From a virus, in IMG/VR virus record IMGVR_UViG_3300048017_000030, positions 1 through 38,375 of that record: a DNA stretch of 38,375 nucleotides; one strand, given 5' to 3'. The position numbers were made by a program, and so were the translations under genes. The stretch's first letter is position 1; each line of letters begins with the position of its first letter. Below, piece by piece: positions 9,983 through 23,713 of the stretch. Below the pieces are notes generated by a model. It had not been told where the DNA came from and searched no databases. It saw only the letters and a list, made by a program, of their open reading frames with translations.

Positions 9983-11817
9983 AGCTTCTCCACTTCTCTG
10001 ATGTAATAGTTAAAGTCCACCGGCGACTTGCCAGCATCCTTGATGTCGTTGCAGGGCTGCACGCCCCAGCCAGACTCCACGCCAATCTTGCGCCACACGC
10101 CAGGTTTGGCCTTCAAGGGCGGCATCCACTTGAACAGGTGCCCGCCATCTTTGGCGATGTAGTAGCGCGTGACGTTCTGAAGCTGTGATGCCACGCCATC
10201 GTGCTCAATGGACAGGTAGCTGGACCGTGGCACCTTGGTGCGCAGCATGAAGTCCATGATGTGCGGCCACTGCTCCACAGTCTCGCGGATCGGTGCGCCA
10301 TCAATCAGCACCTTCTCGGCCACCTTGGGTACCACCAGACCACCAGCGTTCTGGTGCCACTGCATCTTGTGCTCGTAGGCGCCCTTGCGTTTGACCCTGC
10401 CGTCCTCATACCGTGCGATGTAGTTGTTCACGTCACGGATGAACATGTGCGAATAGATCGCCTCCTCCAGTTGCAGGCCGGTGCGCGACTCCCACGCAGC
10501 ACGGGCCGTGTCCACCAGCCACTTGTTGGTACGGGGCACCCGCACGGTCATGCCGTCCGTGTTCACTTGGATGATCTTCAACCCGTCGATGTGCATCATC
10601 CCTTCGGCCAGCACGCACAGCAGCAGTTGCCCGTTGAGCGTGATGCTCATGGTGAACAGCGGGTCGTAGAACACGCTGAACGGGTTGTTGCTGTCACCGT
10701 AGACACCGTTGAGCGCCAGCTTCAGCATGGCGTTCTCGGCACTGTTTTTGGCGTAGGTTTTGCGCTGTTCGTACAAATTTTTGTAGATGTCGCAGAATGA
10801 CTCACCTAAATGGGCAGGATAGAACCGGTTGCTGATCGCCAGATTTGGGTAGTAAGAGCTGACGTCCAGATCAACAATGACGTGATCAGCATCACTCTCG
10901 ACAACCTCGGACTCCACCGATCCGTGAATACCGCCAAGTCCAAACACAAAATCGAAACCATTAACCCGAGCAACAACGTCATCAAAAACTCCTTTGGTTT
11001 CAGTGATCACTTGATCCTTGAGCCAGCCCAGAACCCGTGTGAACTCGGGCTGCTCGAATGTGATCCAAGGCAGGACGGCATCCTTGAGCGCCAACTGGGG
11101 GCGTGGGGTCTGCCGAGGTGTGCGTCCCTTGGGGCCGAAGTCGTACAGCGTGACACCGGCTTCTTCGAGCTTCATGGCAAAGAACTCTTTGCCGATCTTG
11201 GTGTCGTTGTAGTTGATCCAGTCCTTGCCTGGGTACAGGCGGCACAGCTCCTCGCGGAACTTGATCATGTCAGCCGTGTGCCCGAGGAACAACTTGGTCT
11301 GCGCCACATCGTGCGCGTTGTACTGCTTGAGCTTGACGGCCTGCTCCTGGGTCAACTCGGTGCCCACCTTGAACGGCAGGTCTTCGATGTTGTCAGAGCA
11401 CATGTTGAACTCGAGCACCTTGAGGCTGGTGGCTCGGGCCTTGTTGTCGAAGTGGTGAATCTTGAACAGGTCCACCTGCTCAACGAATCGGTCACTCGGG
11501 TTGACCATGTGCATCCATCGGTCGCTGTCATCTTGCGAGTTGATGATGGCCATGGCCTTCTGGTACAGCGTGAAGGCATCGCTGTGACCCATGCGGATCA
11601 GCGTATGCAGGACGGGGTAGTCGAACCCCAGGTTATTGAACCCGACCATACGGGCGTTCGTATCCTTGAGATACTGGAGAAACGCAATGATTTCTTTGGA
11701 GTCGTTGCGCCAGGGTGTGATTTCAAAAGCCCATCGTAGCGGTGCTTCTGCGTGCTCCACCGCCAGCGTGAAGACGTTGGGGTAGGTTTCGATGTCGAAC
11801 ACATATTCATTACTCAT
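9964..11817 (-). CDS. DNA polymerase, family B-like, with 3'-5' exonuclease
   Basis: A 617-residue replicative polymerase. Exonuclease motifs: FDIET (Asp8, Glu10), NNLGFDYP (Asp66) and YNAHD (Asp170). Polymerase motifs: A is DLDVSSYYPN (Asp318), B is KLALNGVYG (Lys366, Asn370, Tyr373), and C is VNTDGM with Asp421. The canonical C motif DTD reads NTD here. The order fits family B, and the length is short, as in phage enzymes. It presumably copies the phage genome with the ssDNA-binding protein and prim-pol encoded nearby. No terminal-protein gene is evident. A stem-loop precedes the start. Confidence 0.88.
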   Translation of the reverse strand: MSNEYVFDIETYPNVFTLAVEHAEAPLRWAFEITPWRNDSKEIIAFLQYLKDTNARMVGFNNLGFDYPVLHTLIRMGHSDAFTLYQKAMAIINSQDDSDRWMHMVNPSDRFVEQVDLFKIHHFDNKARATSLKVLEFNMCSDNIEDLPFKVGTELTQEQAVKLKQYNAHDVAQTKLFLGHTADMIKFREELCRLYPGKDWINYNDTKIGKEFFAMKLEEAGVTLYDFGPKGRTPRQTPRPQLALKDAVLPWITFEQPEFTRVLGWLKDQVITETKGVFDDVVARVNGFDFVFGLGGIHGSVESEVVESDADHVIVDLDVSSYYPNLAISNRFYPAHLGESFCDIYKNLYEQRKTYAKNSAENAMLKLALNGVYGDSNNPFSVFYDPLFTMSITLNGQLLLCVLAEGMMHIDGLKIIQVNTDGMTVRVPRTNKWLVDTARAAWESRTGLQLEEAIYSHMFIRDVNNYIARYEDGRVKRKGAYEHKMQWHQNAGGLVVPKVAEKVLIDGAPIRETVEQWPHIMDFMLRTKVPRSSYLSIEHDGVASQLQNVTRYYIAKDGGHLFKWMPPLKAKPGVWRKIGVESGWGVQPCNDIKDAGKSPVDFNYYIREVEKLCLGLA

Positions 11818-15229: not shown

Positions 15230-15274
15230 ATGAAGAAACTGGCAACTGCGATCACCAGCGAGTCCATTGTATGA
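15230..15274 (+). CDS. 14-residue leader peptide coupled to the primase gene
   Basis: ATG 15230 has a strong AAAGGAG 7 bases upstream and encodes MKKLATAITSESIV, ending in TGA 15272-15274 that overlaps the primase ATG 15271 as ATGA. The primase itself has no ribosome site of its own just upstream, so its translation probably depends on ribosomes finishing this mini-ORF. The peptide need have no function of its own. Confidence 0.6.
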   Translation: MKKLATAITSESIV

Positions 15275-17748
15275 CAGCAATTCCAACCGTTCAAGCACAT
15301 CCTGCATCCATCGATGCGTACATCCGTCACGGCTGGTCACTTGTGCCCATTCCCGCAGGCACCAAGGGGCCACGCACACCTGGCTGGAACGTCAAGGCCA
15401 ACGCCCTCAAGTCACAGGGTGAACTGCCCGCAGGCTACGGCATCGGCTTGGCCCATGCCTACAGCGGCACGATGGCGCTGGACATTGACGAGTGGGACAA
15501 CACCACCGTGGCGCTCAGGGCACACGGCATCAACCTGCAAGAGTTGTATGATGCCAACGATGCTGTCATCGTCGACTCGGGCAGGGCTGGTCACGGCAAG
15601 TTGCTGTACCAGATGCCCTTCGGTCTGGCCCTGCCGTCCAAGAAGATCCTGATCAACAGCGTCACAGCCTACGAGCTGCGCTGCGCCACGGCCAACGGCC
15701 TGACGGTGCAGGACGTTATGCCCCCCAGTATCCATCCCGCCACGATGCAGCCCTACCGGTGGGCTGGCAAGGGTCACTGGACCCGTCTGCCCATGATCCC
15801 CCAACCCCTGCTCGATCTGTGGCAGGGCATGCTGGCGCAGGACAAGGAGCGCACCATCGGCACAGGTGAAGCTGTCGATGCGTCATGGTCCGACATCCGA
15901 TCGGCCCTTGAGTCCATCCCTGCCAACTGCTCCCGTGAGGAGTGGGTCACCGTGGGCATGGCGCTCAAGTGGGCAGGGGACCAGACGAATCAACTCGATC
16001 AGGGCCTGACGCTCTGGCATGACTGGAGCCAGCAGTCGGTTGACAAATACCCCGGCGAAAAAGAAATCGTCAACCAGTGGGTCAGCTTCAGGAACGACAA
16101 GTCCACAGCGGTCAAGCTGGGCAGTCTGTTCCACATCGCCAAGCAGCACGGATGGGTCAAGCCTTTGCCCGACATCACAGCCATGTTCTCGGCAGTCGAG
16201 GCACCCGCCGACCCAAAGTCGGTCATCGTTGACCTGCGGCCACGGCCACCGATGATGGATGTGTCTTTGTGGCCTGCTGTCATTGCCCGCCGTGCCGAGG
16301 AGATCGGCCAGACCGTGGGCTGTGACCCTCTGGTGCCCTTGTTCGCCGGGCTGGCTGCTGTCTGCGGTGTCGTGGATGCACGCACCCGGCTGGAACTGAT
16401 CAAAGACTTCAAGGTGCCACCAGTGCTGTGGCTCATGACCATCGGTGCCCCAGCGGACAAGAAGACTCCAGGCTCTGCGCCCATGCTGGCCCCGCTCAAG
16501 AACCTCGAGATGGAAGACCGGCCACGGTTCAAAAAGGATCTGCTGGACTGGGAGGGTCAAGAGGCCATGTTCGCATCCAGCAAGAAGGCTTTTCTCGAGT
16601 TCTCGGCCAGTCCTGACGCCATGCTGGGTGGTGATCAAGCGCCACAGGTGCATGAGTTGCCACCGCAGCCGGTGCCCCTGCGCATCACGGTGGATGACGT
16701 GACCAGTCAGAAGCTGGTGCGCCTAGCGGCAGATCGCCCCCGGGGTCTGCTGTGCGCCCTTGATGAGATGAACTCGTGGGTGCGCAAGCTGACCGACAAG
16801 GCCAGCGGCGAGGACCGCTCGGCATGGGTCAAGGCGTACGAGTCGAGCAGCTACGAGATGGACCGTGTGGGCAGTGGGTCCATCTTTGCCGAGAACCTGG
16901 CTGTGTCGATCTACGGCAACATCCAGCCCCGTGTGTTCCGTGAGAACCTGCACAACCTGTCAGCCGATGGTCTGGTGCAGCGCTTCGTCCCCTGCATCTT
17001 GAACGGCGACCTGACCCGCAAGCCCGTCGAGATCCCCGACTACCTGCTGAACAAGCAGCAGTGGGAGCAGACCCTGCGCATCGTGTTCGCCCTGCCTGCG
17101 ATGACTTACCAGTTGTCCCCAGAGGCCAAGGCTGCGTATCAGCAGTTCCAAGACTGGTATGACGCCAAGCGCCACGATGAGCGACTGTTGCAATCAGACG
17201 ACACATTCATGACGGCATTCGGCAAGATCGAGGGTTTGGCCGGGCGCATCATGCTCATGTTCCACCTGATCGAGTCACCCTTTAGCATGACGGTGTCAGC
17301 GGATCTGGCCAAGCGGGTGATCCAACTGGTGCAGTCCTACGTGGTGCCTGCTTACCGGTATGCCTTGAGTGAGTTGTCTGGTGCGTCCAACTTCGACACC
17401 TGGCTGCGGGACTACATTATCCAGCACGCCGACGAGTCCATGATCACCATGGCCGAGATCAAGCGGTCAGCACGCCGCCAGATCGAGAAGACCAACGTGT
17501 GGCAGCAGGACCAGATGATTTATGGGGCCATGTACCCTCTGGAGCAGGGCAGGTGGGTCATGCGCATGGACGATGGCAGCAAGGAGAACCAGCACCATGC
17601 TCAGTGGGCCATCAACCCAGCACTGGCTGTGCAGTTCAAGGATCACCGCAAGGCCGTGATCGACGCCAAACAGCGCCAGCTTGATGACATCTACAGGCTG
17701 TCCAGAAAAGAAAAGCCCCGTGTGTACGGGGCCGAGTTGCTGGATTGA
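15271..17748 (+). CDS. primase-helicase: prim-pol + PriCT + DUF3987
   Basis: An 825-residue multidomain replication protein. Residues 10-180 match the bifunctional primase/polymerase N-terminal domain: LVPIPAGTKGPRTPGW, the metal motif ALDIDEWD (Asp71, Asp73), the Gly/His loop SGRAGHGKLLY and ELR ... VMPPSIHP (His155). Residues 205-295 match PriCT_2 (ALESIPANCSREEWVTVGMA, LWHDWSQQSVDKYPGEKEI). Residues 325-780 match the DUF3987 helicase-like domain, with the P-loop at 392-399 reading GAPADKKT where GxxxxGK(S/T) is expected, and a Walker B-like LLCALDEMNSW. It probably lays primers and unwinds the fork for the family-B polymerase. Translation is coupled to the leader ORF. Confidence 0.85.
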   Translation: MTAIPTVQAHPASIDAYIRHGWSLVPIPAGTKGPRTPGWNVKANALKSQGELPAGYGIGLAHAYSGTMALDIDEWDNTTVALRAHGINLQELYDANDAVIVDSGRAGHGKLLYQMPFGLALPSKKILINSVTAYELRCATANGLTVQDVMPPSIHPATMQPYRWAGKGHWTRLPMIPQPLLDLWQGMLAQDKERTIGTGEAVDASWSDIRSALESIPANCSREEWVTVGMALKWAGDQTNQLDQGLTLWHDWSQQSVDKYPGEKEIVNQWVSFRNDKSTAVKLGSLFHIAKQHGWVKPLPDITAMFSAVEAPADPKSVIVDLRPRPPMMDVSLWPAVIARRAEEIGQTVGCDPLVPLFAGLAAVCGVVDARTRLELIKDFKVPPVLWLMTIGAPADKKTPGSAPMLAPLKNLEMEDRPRFKKDLLDWEGQEAMFASSKKAFLEFSASPDAMLGGDQAPQVHELPPQPVPLRITVDDVTSQKLVRLAADRPRGLLCALDEMNSWVRKLTDKASGEDRSAWVKAYESSSYEMDRVGSGSIFAENLAVSIYGNIQPRVFRENLHNLSADGLVQRFVPCILNGDLTRKPVEIPDYLLNKQQWEQTLRIVFALPAMTYQLSPEAKAAYQQFQDWYDAKRHDERLLQSDDTFMTAFGKIEGLAGRIMLMFHLIESPFSMTVSADLAKRVIQLVQSYVVPAYRYALSELSGASNFDTWLRDYIIQHADESMITMAEIKRSARRQIEKTNVWQQDQMIYGAMYPLEQGRWVMRMDDGSKENQHHAQWAINPALAVQFKDHRKAVIDAKQRQLDDIYRLSRKEKPRVYGAELLD

Positions 17749-19552: not shown

Positions 19553-19855
19553 TTAGTTTGCCGTCTGGTTCGATGCCTTAACAGCCGGTGAGGGACGCCC
19601 GCGCTTGACGGGCACGGGCGCAGGGATCAGGCCAGCGAGCAGCGCCGGGGCCAGTGCGCCCACCATGTCGAGCACCTCCACCAGTCGCACGGCGGCGGCG
19701 CTGGGTGCGCGGGTACCCGTGCGCCACTTGCGAAGGGTGAACACGGGAACACCTAGCAGGCCAGCGGCGCGGGCTTCGGTCAACTGGTGCCGGGTTATCA
19801 GTGCACCCAGCGCGGGCATGAAATCGGGGTTTTGGGCGGGTTTTTTGTCAGTCAT
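19553..19855 (-). CDS. helix-turn-helix regulator, Cro/CI-like
   Basis: A 100-residue protein with a helix-turn-helix at about residues 24-60: LTEARAAGLLGVPVFTLRKW then RTGTRAPSAAAVRLVEVLD, the typical XRE pattern with TLRKW in the recognition helix and RAPS..A..L after it. The C-terminus is an Ala/Pro/Arg-rich tail (PVPVKRGRPSPAVKASNQTA). It stands alone between a terminator (19879-19909) and the accessory cluster. It is a candidate for the factor that reads the palindromes at 22047-23127, but nothing in the sequence proves the pairing. Confidence 0.75.
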   Translation of the reverse strand: MTDKKPAQNPDFMPALGALITRHQLTEARAAGLLGVPVFTLRKWRTGTRAPSAAAVRLVEVLDMVGALAPALLAGLIPAPVPVKRGRPSPAVKASNQTAN

Positions 19856-19878: not shown

Positions 19879-19909
19879 AAAAAATGCCCCTGAACGCTAA
19901 TTCAGGGGC
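19879..19909 (-). terminator. rho-independent terminator of the 22589-19933 minus operon
   Basis: A perfect 9-bp inverted repeat (GCCCCTGAA at 19886-19894, TTCAGGGGC at 19901-19909) has a six-base loop. On the minus strand it is followed by A and then six T. It closes the operon that ends with the 19-residue ORF and insulates the HTH gene downstream. Confidence 0.85.
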
Positions 19910-19912
19910 TCG

Positions 19913-19926
19913 GGGTTACGGGTTAC
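19913..19926. repeat. TTACGGG heptamer repeat (two units)
   Basis: GGGTTACGGGTTAC lies between the 19-residue ORF and the terminator. The same heptamer occurs at 21559-21585, 21918-21928 and 22031-22043, always in intergenic parts of this minus operon. Confidence 0.7.
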
Positions 19927-20335: not shown

Positions 20336-20985
20336 GCAACCACCTTCAAGCGAATGACACGGGCCATCTTCTGGCCATGGGCCGGATAGCAAATCAATTC
20401 AATGGATTTATCCCAGCACGCGCGACAGCCAGAACATTTGCCCTCATGCTCATAAGCCCGGCACAGTGAAGCGCCTGGGCGGTCCTGATAAGTCTCAGCG
20501 CTGGGTCCAATGACGGACCCATGAAGGCCGGGGATATATTCCCCATTTATTGAGTCAGCACTAAAGCGCACGGCCACATTGTCTAAGCGCTTCATCTGGT
20601 CCAAGACCATGCGGAATTTAGGGAATTTGTGCATACGGGTTGGGAGCCAATGCTTGACCCATGGCGTGCGCTGCATCACTTCGAGCACCTTCTCAGCCAG
20701 CGCCAGCGAGTAAAGATCCCCCGAGTCAAGCCAGCGGAAATAGCGGTCTCGCTCAAGCTCGGCGACCATATCGTCGCACCAGTCGAGCCGTTGCCAGTCA
20801 GTGCGATTGAATTCCCTAGGTGCCTTGACGTTGGGGTAGTTGTAATTCCCGGTGGTGGCGTAGCATCCTTTGCAGGCGTCCACCAGCACGCCGGGCGACT
20901 CGATCGAGCCGGGGCAGGTGTCAAGGGCTTGAAGGGACCATGAGCGAATGCCGTCGAGTTTTGAAGTCACGCTGAGTTTAGGCAT
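20332..20985 (-). CDS. GP88-like Cys-rich protein
   Basis: A 217-residue protein resembling the phage 'gene product 88' family: TCPGS (Cys24), ACKGCYATTGNYNY (Cys38, Cys41), the strongly conserved block RYFRWLDSGDLYSLALAEKV (residues 81-100), and TPWVKHWLPTRMHKF. A second Cys cluster lies near the end (CRAYEHEGKCSGCRACWDKS). The clustered cysteines suggest an iron-sulphur or zinc site. The biochemical role of the family is unknown to me. It is coupled to a small HTH-like gene upstream (8-base overlap) and is the largest gene of this accessory operon. Confidence 0.7.
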   Translation of the reverse strand: MPKLSVTSKLDGIRSWSLQALDTCPGSIESPGVLVDACKGCYATTGNYNYPNVKAPREFNRTDWQRLDWCDDMVAELERDRYFRWLDSGDLYSLALAEKVLEVMQRTPWVKHWLPTRMHKFPKFRMVLDQMKRLDNVAVRFSADSINGEYIPGLHGSVIGPSAETYQDRPGASLCRAYEHEGKCSGCRACWDKSIELICYPAHGQKMARVIRLKVVA

Positions 20986-21238
20986 TGGTTCCCCCTTCGA
21001 TCATTTGGCGAATATGTGCGGGCAAGCGGTCTAACTGGTCGTCGGTCCATGTGGGCAGGCGTGGCGCTGGGGCGCGGGTCAAGTGCTCCACAGTTGACCG
21101 GCTGACACCCATCTGGGCAGCGATGGCGGCGCGGGTTTCCCCGTCATCGAACAGGGCGCGGGCCTCGGTGCCTTTGTCGCTCACGGTGACAAGGGTAAAG
21201 TGGTCCCGGAAAAATTGGGCGGTCATTGGGTTGTACAT
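20978..21238 (-). CDS. small helix-turn-helix protein
   Basis: The start ATG 21238 has AAGGGGG about 7 bases upstream; a TTG at 21244 is possible. The 86-residue product contains EARALFDDGETRAAIAAQMG followed by VSRSTVEHLTRAP, a classical helix-turn-helix with VSRSTVEHL as the recognition helix. The C-terminal part (WTDDQLDRLPAHIRQMIEGG) is helical. It could be a regulator of the accessory operon. It overlaps the GP88-like gene by 8 bases. Confidence 0.65.
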   Translation of the reverse strand: MYNPMTAQFFRDHFTLVTVSDKGTEARALFDDGETRAAIAAQMGVSRSTVEHLTRAPAPRLPTWTDDQLDRLPAHIRQMIEGGTNA

Positions 21239-21240
21239 GA

Positions 21241-21543
21241 TCAAACCCCCTTACGTGCAGACACGCGAACAGTCGAGAACGGGGTCCCGTGTTCAGTGTG
21301 AGCGGTCACCAGTTGACGCGATGGCTTGAAGTGTTCAGCGATTGCACGCCACGCGATAACCTCACGGCCCGGACAATGGCTCACGGCGACACGGTAAAGA
21401 TCCCCTTCGAGGGTCTCCACCCCGGCAAGGATCAGCTCGGCCTTCAGGGCCTTGACTTCGGTGTCAATCTCGGCAGCAGCAGTGGCCAGCACGCCCAAGC
21501 GGTCAACGATGGCGGAAAGGGTTTGCAAGTGTTCGTTTCTCAT
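21241..21543 (-). CDS. small accessory protein, 100 aa, unknown
   Basis: A 100-residue protein with an N-terminal helical region (MRNEHLQTLSAIVDRLGVLA, AAEIDTEVKALKAELILAGV) and a C-terminal GREVIAWRAIAEHFKPSRQL unit followed by beta-prone residues. GGAG lies about 8 bases upstream of ATG 21543. Its leader carries four TTACGGG units (21559-21585). Proteins of this layout recur in phages; no function known to me. Confidence 0.6.
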   Translation of the reverse strand: MRNEHLQTLSAIVDRLGVLATAAAEIDTEVKALKAELILAGVETLEGDLYRVAVSHCPGREVIAWRAIAEHFKPSRQLVTAHTEHGTPFSTVRVSARKGV

Positions 21544-21558
21544 GAGTGAATCTCCAAA

Positions 21559-21585
21559 GGTTACGGGTTACGGGTTACGGGTTAC
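21559..21585. repeat. TTACGGG heptamer tandem (four TTAC units)
   Basis: Four TTAC units at exact 7-base spacing lie immediately upstream of the ribosome site of the gene starting at 21543. On the coding (minus) strand the leader reads as repeated GTAACCC. This is the longest array of the four in this operon. Confidence 0.85.
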
Positions 21586-21907: not shown

Positions 21908-21924
21908 GATTCAGTCCTTACGGG

Positions 21925-22014
21925 TTACAAGGGGAACAGAGCGATCAGCGAGTGCAGCAGCACGGCGAGCAGGGCGAGGGCGATTACAACGGCGAGGGTG
22001 GCGTCTTTGATCAT
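21925..22014 (-). CDS. 29-residue membrane micropeptide
   Basis: ATG 22014 has GGAG about 9 bases upstream. The ORF encodes MIKDATLAVVIALALLAVLL then HSLIALFPL, a single membrane segment with a charged N-terminus. Its TAA stop falls inside the TTACGGG repeat shared with the next leader. It is the first ORF behind the promoter flanked by palindromes at 22055-22098. Short-frame statistics alone would not support it; the ribosome site and position do. Confidence 0.5.
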   Translation of the reverse strand: MIKDATLAVVIALALLAVLLHSLIALFPL

Positions 22015-22030
22015 TGGGAAAGTCTCCAGG

Positions 22031-22043
22031 GGTTACGGGTTAC
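22031..22043. repeat. TTACGGG heptamer repeat (two units)
   Basis: GGTTACGGGTTAC lies between the promoter/operator at 22055-22098 and the ribosome site of the 29-residue ORF, thus in the 5' leader of the minus transcript. Confidence 0.7.
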
Positions 22044-22054
22044 AATGACTGGGT

Positions 22055-22098
22055 GACCCAGTGGGTTAGATTGTAGCATGATCCAAACCCACTGGGTC
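22055..22098 (-). promoter_or_regulatory. promoter flanked by two inverted palindromic operators
   Basis: Minus-strand TGCTACAAT (22070-22078) is an extended -10 with TACAAT at 22070-22075. Two copies of the 13-mer AACCCACTGGGTC flank it, at 22086-22098 (plus orientation, covering the -35 side, where the minus strand reads TTGACC) and 22055-22067 (minus orientation, just downstream of the -10). This is the usual geometry of a repressed phage promoter. It would drive the minus genes from 22014 leftwards. Confidence 0.65.
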
Positions 22099-22103
22099 AA
22101 GGA

Positions 22104-22589
22104 TTATTTACTAGGGACAAACCCTAAGCGATACATCAGCACGGCGGCATCGCGTTCCTCACGGTTTGCAAAGCGCCCCAAGTGTTTTACTTTCCCGTCA
22201 ACACGGATAGCGGCTTGCCATGTTTTGCGCTCACGGGGCACGCGCTTCACCAGTTCACCGGTGCGCAGCCAGTGAAGAACGATTGACGCGCTCACGGCTC
22301 GATCTTGAAAGCGAACAGTGGCACCACATCGCACGCGCACCCGTCGCTCAATGGTGCCTTGTAGCCACGTTTCAACGCGATGCAATGCGCCATCATGTTC
22401 GACGAATTCAAAGCCCGTCATCACGGGTTTGATACTGGGCGTGACCTCGCGCACATCTCGCACGGGCTTCACGGGTTCGGCATTCAACCCGATCATCTCG
22501 CGCAGTTGGGTATCGGTGAACCCCTCGATTACGTCAAAGTCGAGGTCTGTCTTGGCATAGAGCCGTTCAATCATGTCATCACGTTGCAT
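22104..22589 (-). CDS. AP2-like DNA-binding protein
   Basis: A 161-residue protein. Residues 121-158 (RKTWQAAIRVDGKVKHLGRF then ANREERDAAVLMYRLGF) resemble an AP2 DNA-binding domain (W.A.I..NGK..HLG.F...E.A..AY), a fold common in homing endonucleases. There is no HNH motif. Residues 85-115 (RVRCGATVRFQDRAVSASIV) form a basic beta region; the N-terminal 45 residues are acidic and helical. AGGGG precedes the start. A good promoter (22628-22656) lies upstream, and CTGGGT palindromes lie on both sides of the gene, so it may be the regulator that binds them. Confidence 0.6.
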   Translation of the reverse strand: MQRDDMIERLYAKTDLDFDVIEGFTDTQLREMIGLNAEPVKPVRDVREVTPSIKPVMTGFEFVEHDGALHRVETWLQGTIERRVRVRCGATVRFQDRAVSASIVLHWLRTGELVKRVPRERKTWQAAIRVDGKVKHLGRFANREERDAAVLMYRLGFVPSK

Positions 22590-22627
22590 GGTTTCCCCTT
22601 GTTATCAGTTGTTAGCATGTTAGCAAT

Positions 22628-22656
22628 ATTCTGTGACAAGTGGTGCATTGTGTCAA
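22628..22656 (-). promoter_or_regulatory. sigma70-like promoter of the AP2-like gene
   Basis: On the minus strand TTGACA (plus 22651-22656) is followed after exactly 17 bases by CAGAAT (plus 22628-22633). The start codon at 22589 lies 39 bases further. Two GTTAGC units at 22611-22626, between the -10 and the gene, are inverted copies of the GCTAAC units in the 22758-22820 repeats. Confidence 0.65.
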
Positions 22657-22757
22657 GATGGTACAGAAAGATAAAAGAATTCTCGGATTAAAAGACCATT
22701 TTAAAAAAGTCTGTTTCTTCCCCCTCGCCTGCGCGATGTCACCAATGGCTCACGCAT

Positions 22758-22813
22758 CGAGAAACACGGCTAACGCGCTAACGATTCCCGAGAAACACGG
22801 CTAACGCGCTAAC
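22758..22813. repeat. tandem 25-bp direct repeat with GCTAAC units
   Basis: Two identical 25-base copies, 22758-22782 and 22789-22813, are separated by six bases. Each starts CGAGAAACACGG and ends CTAACGCGCTAAC. A further GCTAAC follows at about 22815-22820. The 31-base period is close to three helical turns, so proteins bound to each copy would lie on the same DNA face. Confidence 0.9.
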
Positions 22814-22829
22814 TTGCTAACACTGATCA

Positions 22830-23127
22830 AACCCACTGGGTTGACACTGGAATCACTGGATCAGATGACCCAATGGGTGACTGGTACTGGGTGCAATGGG
22901 TGACCCGCTGGGTCAGGTGCTCGGGCTCACTGGGTCGCTGGGTCGCTGCACCATGATCCACGGGATCGCGCCATGGGCTCATGGGATCACGGGTGCTTGG
23001 GCTCACTGGGTCGCGGGTGCTCGAGCCGCCGAGGCCCCCGGGTAGGGCCGAGCGACAAGGGTCTGCGGCTACGGTGACCCCGGAAACAATTTAAAAATTT
23101 TTCAAATTTCTCAGTAACCCACTGGGT
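22830..23127. repeat. array of palindromic ACCCACTGGGT-type sites
   Basis: CTGGGT cores occur at 22836, 22887, 22908, 22930, 22938, 23006 and 23122. Full or near palindromes are AACCCACTGGGTT (22830-22842), GACCCAATGGGT (22867-22878), TGACCCGCTGGGTCAG (22901-22916) and AACCCACTGGGT (23116-23127). Three more cores lie at 22049-22097. At 22841-22846 the palindrome runs into TTGACA, a possible plus-strand -35. Confidence 0.8.
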
Positions 23128-23163: not shown

Positions 23164-23172
23164 TGATAGACT
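23164..23172 (+). promoter_or_regulatory. weak putative extended -10 before the small terminase gene
   Basis: TGATAGACT carries an extended TG and TAGACT as -10, similar to the TGnTACACT elements elsewhere in the genome. It is only 11 bases before ATG 23183, so a transcript from it would have almost no leader. The real late promoter may instead lie further upstream, for example at the TTGACA at 22841. Confidence 0.3.
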
Positions 23173-23182
23173 CAGTACCACT

Positions 23183-23713
23183 ATGGACACATTGAACCCC
23201 AATCCCGTAGGCGCAGATGTCGCACATCAAATCGAACTACCAGACTGGCTCGACCCCGCGCCTCCTAAGCCCTCACCAGAAGGCAAAGCACTCGTACTTG
23301 TGCAGTATGAGCAGGTCTTCATGCGTGCCATCGACTCGATTGCCCACGGCAAGTCCTTGTCCCAAGTGCTGCGGGACGACCAGCGGGACATCGACTACAA
23401 CGACTTCTACCGGTGGATCAAGAAAGACCCCACCCGTAAATCCCTGTTCGACGAAGCCCAGGAGATGCGCACCGAGTTCATGGCCGGTGAGATCATCGAG
23501 ATTGCCGACGCCGATGACTCACTGGAGGACGTCCAGCGTTCCAGATTGAAGATCGACACTCGCAAGTGGCTCATGGGCGCACACAATCGGAAAAAGTACG
23601 GCGAGACGAAGACCGTGGAGCTGGGCGGGTCGATCTCGATCACCGATGCACTGGCTGCGGCTCAGGCTCGGATCATTGAAGCTGAAGTGATTGATGTGGA
23701 GGTAAAGGAATGA
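23183..23713 (+). CDS. terminase small subunit
   Basis: A 176-residue protein; ATG 23183 is used because the longer frame begins at a GTG in the non-coding region. The N-terminal 40 residues are flexible and Pro-rich. Next comes a helix-turn-helix-like region (AIDSIAHGKSLSQVLRDDQR, DYNDFYRWIKKDPTRKSLFD), typical of small terminases that recognise packaging DNA. Then come the helical oligomerisation part (EAQEMRTEFMAGEIIEIADA) and RLKIDTRKWLMGAHNRKKYG, a segment I recall from many phage small terminases. It lies directly before the large subunit, with one micropeptide ORF between. Confidence 0.82.
   Translation: MDTLNPNPVGADVAHQIELPDWLDPAPPKPSPEGKALVLVQYEQVFMRAIDSIAHGKSLSQVLRDDQRDIDYNDFYRWIKKDPTRKSLFDEAQEMRTEFMAGEIIEIADADDSLEDVQRSRLKIDTRKWLMGAHNRKKYGETKTVELGGSISITDALAAAQARIIEAEVIDVEVKE

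Follow-up and report, generated by a model that had tools for sequence, protein, structure and literature searches.

The DNA analysed here (the window) is a virus record of 38,375 bases, which was searched in full for the palindrome ACCCANTGGGT. Five copies were found, all of them in the region that divides the leftward small genes from the rightward virion genes starting with the small terminase gene, terS (Table 1). None occurs elsewhere in the window, while 0.14 copies are expected by chance according to dinucleotide shuffles, with a maximum of one in 100 shuffles. Six sites in this switch region match with no more than one mismatch. A preliminary description of the DNA had proposed a palindromic 13-mer enriched only here, and the full palindrome is indeed confined to 22.05-23.13 kb. 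It had also noted about ten CTGGGT cores in 1.1 kb. Ten were counted in that span, and the core is not specific to the array, with 46 copies over the genome. We therefore rejected it as the functional unit, and regard the full palindrome as the significant one.

Two inverted 13-mers reported at 22055-22067 and 22086-22098 proved exact, and the extended -10 promoter that they were said to flank is present on the minus strand, with TTGACC at 22099-22094, a spacer of 18 bp and TGC-TACAAT at 22078-22070. A further palindrome, described as running from 22830-22842 into TTGACA on the plus strand, was recovered, but no -10 lies at a suitable distance from this TTGACA (22841-22846), which makes it unconvincing as a promoter element. 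The extended -10 TGATAGACT at 23164-23172, immediately ahead of terS, is convincing as a plus-strand promoter. The palindrome placed at 23116-23127 ahead of the small terminase gene is a full operator palindrome. The terS start itself is the ATG at 23183; the GTG at 23126 was rejected as the start, and the CACTATG context of the ATG is conserved. Further to the left, operators are absent from the primase gene (15271-17748) and from the polymerase block. The central intergenic region also contains a perfect direct repeat of a 25-mer, CGAGAAACACGGCTAACGCGCTAAC, at 22758-22813, with two copies 31 bp apart (22758/22789), a possible origin element.

Table 1. Positions of the features discussed in the text
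Feature	Position	Strand	Basis
Putative switch regulator, 100-aa XRE/lambda-repressor-like HTH protein	19553..19855	-	Fold, profiles, co-occurrence
Intrinsic terminator (GCCCCTGAA..TTCAGGGGC + T run), directly 5' of XRE gene	19879..19909	-	Sequence
Putative operator, 3' of leftward promoter -10	22056..22066		ACCCANTGGGT match, shuffles
Leftward (presumed early) promoter, TTGACC-N18-TACAAT, extended -10 TG	22070..22099	-	Sequence; relatives
Putative operator over -35/spacer of leftward promoter	22087..22097		ACCCANTGGGT match, shuffles
AP2-like (HNH-family-related) ORF between operator groups	22104..22589	-	PHROG HNH matches
Putative operator, central array	22831..22841		ACCCANTGGGT match
Putative operator, central array (ACCCAATGGGT)	22868..22878		ACCCANTGGGT match
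One-mismatch putative operator ACCCGCTGGGT	22903..22913		Sequence
Degenerate operator / half-site GCTCACTGGGT	22925..22935		Repeat family D1
Degenerate operator / half-site GCTCACTGGGT	23001..23011		Repeat family D1
Conserved A/T tract (AATTTTTTATTTTTTCAAA in relatives)	23086..23111	+	Relatives
Putative terS-proximal operator	23117..23127		Centre 45 bp before late -10 start
Putative late promoter, extended -10 TGATAGACT, poor -35	23164..23172	+	TAnnnT position conserved
Small terminase gene (terS), first late gene	23183..23713	+	Sf6-type terS, Pfam 6e-20

Conservation of the palindromes and of the leftward promoter

Relatives were gathered by the large terminase, TerL, and not by the motif or by any regulator. 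In this set the palindrome is kept: the 151 kb that precede terL contain 101 copies of ACCCANTGGGT, and 730 kb elsewhere contain a single one. The nearest annotated record, the complete phage DSL-LC05 (OR003940), is 71% identical to the window in terS/terL at the nucleotide level and has four perfect copies in the corresponding region. The multi-operator switch geometry inferred in the preliminary description is thus supported by an array that is conserved and enriched only in the divergent region. A search based on the XRE protein enlarged the set to 179 loci, some of which are partly overlapping fetches from one contig; later tests were consequently run on unique sequences. Relatives have about eight operators per genome, spread over 0.6-1.7 kb, and these comparisons suggest that the switch is common to considerably more than 100 phages, uncultivated and probably virulent. 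In the switch regions of two of them (L111 and L116) the central array consists mostly of asymmetric operators, ACCCAGCGGGT, with perfect ones at both ends, which suggests graded affinities.

The leftward promoters of the relatives come close to consensus, and their commonest layout is TTGACA-nnnn(n)-ACCCANTGGGT-TATAAT, with the operator in the spacer and usually centred 6 bp before the -10. Among 117 predicted leftward promoters, 77 overlap an operator, compared with 13% of random windows. When 115 loci were considered, 29 had no promoter meeting the scan rule and 15 had a promoter but no operator; in the 71 unique loci where promoter/operator overlap was scored, 68 operators were centred 5-7 bp before the -10. 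The window represents a second layout, with one operator over the -35 and spacer and one just past the -10. L010 and other relatives share the arrangement of the window's leftward promoter. Several phages of the TSACANTGTSA operator class (see below) likewise have operators overlapping the leftward -35 and -10. Steric repression of the leftward promoter is the natural reading of these positions, and the operon that it serves is probably early.

The XRE gene of this operon lies behind an intrinsic terminator. A terminator-like element precedes the gene in 86 of 134 relatives and was seen at 28 of 402 random positions, and it probably limits or delays expression of the protein. Tandem GTAACCC repeats were observed just before start codons of leftward genes on the minus strand of the window (21565-21585, 21922-21928, 22030-22043 and 19913-19926). 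In the relatives, tandem GTAAC(CC)GTAAC occurs 266 times on the strand of the leftward genes and once on the other, at a median of 17 nt from the next ATG. These repeats are probably an RNA-level leader element.

The XRE-type protein as candidate regulator

The preliminary description had named two candidate regulators, the AP2-like and the XRE-type protein. The XRE gene is present in all 24 array-bearing relatives selected by TerL and in none of 16 loci without the array, all of which are long enough to show it; co-occurrence was scored in loci of this selection with enough upstream DNA. Three further XRE loci of the same selection have variant palindromes instead of ACCCANTGGGT. The AP2-like ORF was found in 23 of 151 complete switches and is missing from the other 128, whose loci carry XRE and operators; none was detected in DSL-LC05. 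Hence it is not required for the array and was rejected as its regulator. An HTH_7 protein (20978-21244) was also discarded, having been found by profile search in the window only, and none of the other HTH genes tested accompanies the array across the relatives. Of the two candidates, the XRE protein (19553-19855) is thus most likely the regulator, to judge from co-occurrence and from the joint changes in specificity described below.

An AlphaFold2 model of this protein has five helices (12-22, 27-34, 38-46, 53-68 and 70-76) in an HTH fold, with a mean pLDDT of 82 and with residues 11-70 in blocks with pLDDT above 90; the predicted recognition helix spans approximately residues 38-46 (VFTLRKWRT). 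Profile matches in the PDB included MqsA (2e-5), HigA-2 (3e-5) and P2 C (0.002). Foldseek returned HigA2 with a probability of 1.0 but an E-value above 0.1. Taken by fold and profile, the nearest structures are HigA2, MqsA, C proteins and P2 C. A Pfam search with the window protein alone gave no match, and HTH_3 was matched by 11 of 20 relatives of the protein, at best with 2e-6. On its predicted structure and these profiles, the protein is a member of the XRE/lambda-repressor-like HTH group.

Three operator classes with a common CA-N-TG centre were distinguished. XRE proteins with Lys43 accompany ACCCANTGGGT operators (146 loci, plus one ambiguous), those with His or Asn43 accompany AGCCANTGGCT (10 loci), and those of the TKSALYA/S type accompany TSACANTGTSA (8 loci, plus one ambiguous). 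In a tree computed after removal of the helix columns, there are two changes of operator class and two of residue class, and they go together. The agreement between predicted recognition helix and operator is complete in these sequences, yet it represents just two independent evolutionary events.

One TerL relative without an XRE gene, L006 (MW202483.1), has another repeat array at 10357-10582, with four copies of TTTACATAAAC, and a different HTH protein annotated as DnaA-like. This protein was rejected as an XRE homologue (hhalign probability 0.1), and the locus is perhaps an independent version of the switch.

Helical phasing at the late promoter

Of 151 relatives, 150 have the TAnnnT of the putative late promoter at -16/-15 relative to the terS ATG, which makes a nearly leaderless terS mRNA probable. 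Its -35 is weak, with 3.6 of 6 positions matched, compared with 2.4 in shuffled sequence, and some basal late activity is therefore likely. The centre of the terS-proximal operator in the relatives precedes the first base of the late -10 by approximately 33, 43 or 53 bp. In about 103 unique sequences this distance is phased at 10.5 bp with R = 0.83. Shared ancestry does not explain the phasing, because the turn class changes about 43 times on the TerS tree (44.5 with shuffled labels), because sister phages that differ in operator distance mostly do so by 9-12 or 20 bp and because R was still 0.78 in a thinned set (n=36), a value that none of 100,000 uniform simulations reached. The TSACANTGTSA class has the same phase (-32/-33, -42/-43) despite its other operator sequence. 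Operator and polymerase thus appear constrained to one face of the helix. Whichever its sign, activation or repression, the phasing is, as read from these spacings, that of a contact on the same face or of looping. The next upstream operator is weakly phased (R = 0.43), and the spacings of adjacent operators have no clear 10.5-bp periodicity (R 0.09-0.24). Three points make activation more likely than repression: the core promoter does not include the operator, its -35 is poor, and something has to trigger the late genes. Bound at the terS-proximal operator, the XRE protein would probably activate the late promoter.

A conserved A/T tract accompanies this operator and usually ends approximately 12-16 bp upstream of it. 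Together with a conserved GC block (GGTAGGGCCG...ACG.AGG.ATCAC.AA) it occupies 23041-23111, just 5' of the operator in the relatives as well, and the two could be a terminator, a packaging site or an upstream element for polymerase. An Rfam search of the switch region, GC block included, gave nothing credible.

A proposed one-protein switch and its alternatives

Sequence comparison shows that the operators are conserved, that they sit within the leftward promoter, that the terS-proximal one is in phase with the late -10 and that XRE and operators occur together and change in concert. These observations are the basis for a model in which one protein shuts the leftward promoter and switches on the virion genes. 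We regard the model as a whole as moderately probable. Three elements of it are inferred: binding of the XRE protein to the palindromes, early expression of the leftward operon and a positive effect on the late promoter. The small XRE protein, a product of the leftward operon, would bind the palindromes as a dimer, and these would be its operators. On entry the leftward promoter would be strong and unrepressed, and XRE, its gene being behind the terminator, would be made late or weakly. As it accumulates, it would fill the operators over the leftward promoter and turn off the operon, its own gene included. From the terS-proximal operator, on a fixed face of the helix, it would most likely recruit RNA polymerase and thereby turn on the virion genes. 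The model assigns no role to the operators of the central array.

Contact from an upstream operator can also repress, as with GalR at gal P1. If XRE blocked the leftward promoter sterically and held polymerase at terS by such a contact, the phasing would be predicted equally well, the eight or so operators per genome would suit titration of XRE by replicated genomes, and the -35, weak as it is, is not absent. We consider this double repression unlikely, since the late operator overlaps neither -35 nor -10 and the leftward promoter is the stronger of the two, both more typical of activation, and since a further mechanism would be required to turn the late genes on. It is decidedly unlikely that XRE oligomers join the terS-proximal operator to the leftward and central ones in a hairpin which silences one promoter and exposes the other: the strong phasing is relative to the late -10, and the absence of clear periodicity between adjacent operators argues against looping, despite the number of operators, the weak phasing of the second one and the precedent of the p4/p6 hairpin over A2c, A2b and A3 in phi29 (PMC3100819).

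Another phage or host protein could bind the array while XRE is merely linked to it, and co-occurrence by itself would be compatible with a linked third gene. The coincidence of operator changes with changes in the XRE recognition helix makes this very improbable, and the distribution of the AP2-like and HTH_7 proteins speaks against the two obvious examples. We give hardly any credence to the reading that the array is primarily an iteron-type replication origin or a packaging element, its overlap with promoters being secondary. The A/T tract and GC block next to the terS-proximal operator, the tandem 25-mer and the position of the array beside terS fit such an element, but an origin needs neither exact operator positions in core promoters nor a helical phase with the late -10.

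With a single XRE gene, no divergent and opposing CI/Cro repressor pair was found. No integrase is annotated in DSL-LC05, the nearest complete relative, which has been classed as lytic (PMC10611076), and no XRE relatives were found in bacterial genome contigs. An early/late switch fits these observations better than lysogeny, and they favour a virulent phage over a lysis-lysogeny decision of the CI/Cro type.

The closest parallel in logic is phi29, where one early protein, p4, is reported to repress A2b and A2c and to activate the late A3 from one region (PMC10899789, PMC3100819). The likeness to this single early-off/late-on protein is an analogy and not one of family. p4 was not among the PDB profile or Foldseek matches listed for XRE. 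Two features of such a switch recur here, namely operators overlapping the promoter of the regulator's own operon and another operator that precedes the late promoter and keeps to one face of the helix. The present protein differs in being of the XRE/HTH type, with a set of about eight palindromes, all short, and with whole helical turns, variable in number, separating its late operator from the promoter; p4 also acts together with the nucleoid protein p6. Beyond phi29, no description of an XRE-type early/late switch was found in the literature searched. The repressors CI of lambda, C2 of P22 and P2 C are also small lambda-repressor-like HTH proteins with repeated palindromic operators over promoters, but here one regulator gene lies within the operon presumed to be its target, DSL-LC05 has no annotated integrase and the choice is between early and late rather than lysis and lysogeny. 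C proteins of restriction-modification systems and the antitoxins HigA and MqsA, which supply the nearest structures, are small autoregulating HTH proteins too, and C proteins activate and repress according to operator position; next to XRE in the window, neither a toxin nor a restriction gene was identified. DSL-LC05 shares gene order, operators and an XRE homologue annotated as 'repressor protein C', a name-only annotation, the word 'repressor' being absent from the main text of the source paper.

The comparisons point to a single-protein phage switch that works like phi29 p4 and is built from an XRE protein. On balance we lean towards the broader view that a single bifunctional XRE-type protein serves as early-off/late-on switch in a large group of aquatic phages, undescribed and for the most part uncultivated. 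The protein would touch RNA polymerase from operators at whole-turn distances and would exist with at least three operator specificities, matched by changes in the helix. The timing of early and late genes in uncultivated, probably virulent phages can seldom be read from sequence. In this case the regulator, its operators, the two promoters and the requirement for contact on the same face are all indicated by comparative geometry alone. With the spacing series (33, 43 and 53 bp) and the three classes of operator, evolution has in effect run its own experiment on activation distance and HTH specificity and, if the reading is true, these phages would hold a ready-made repertoire of dual-function regulators differing in DNA specificity.
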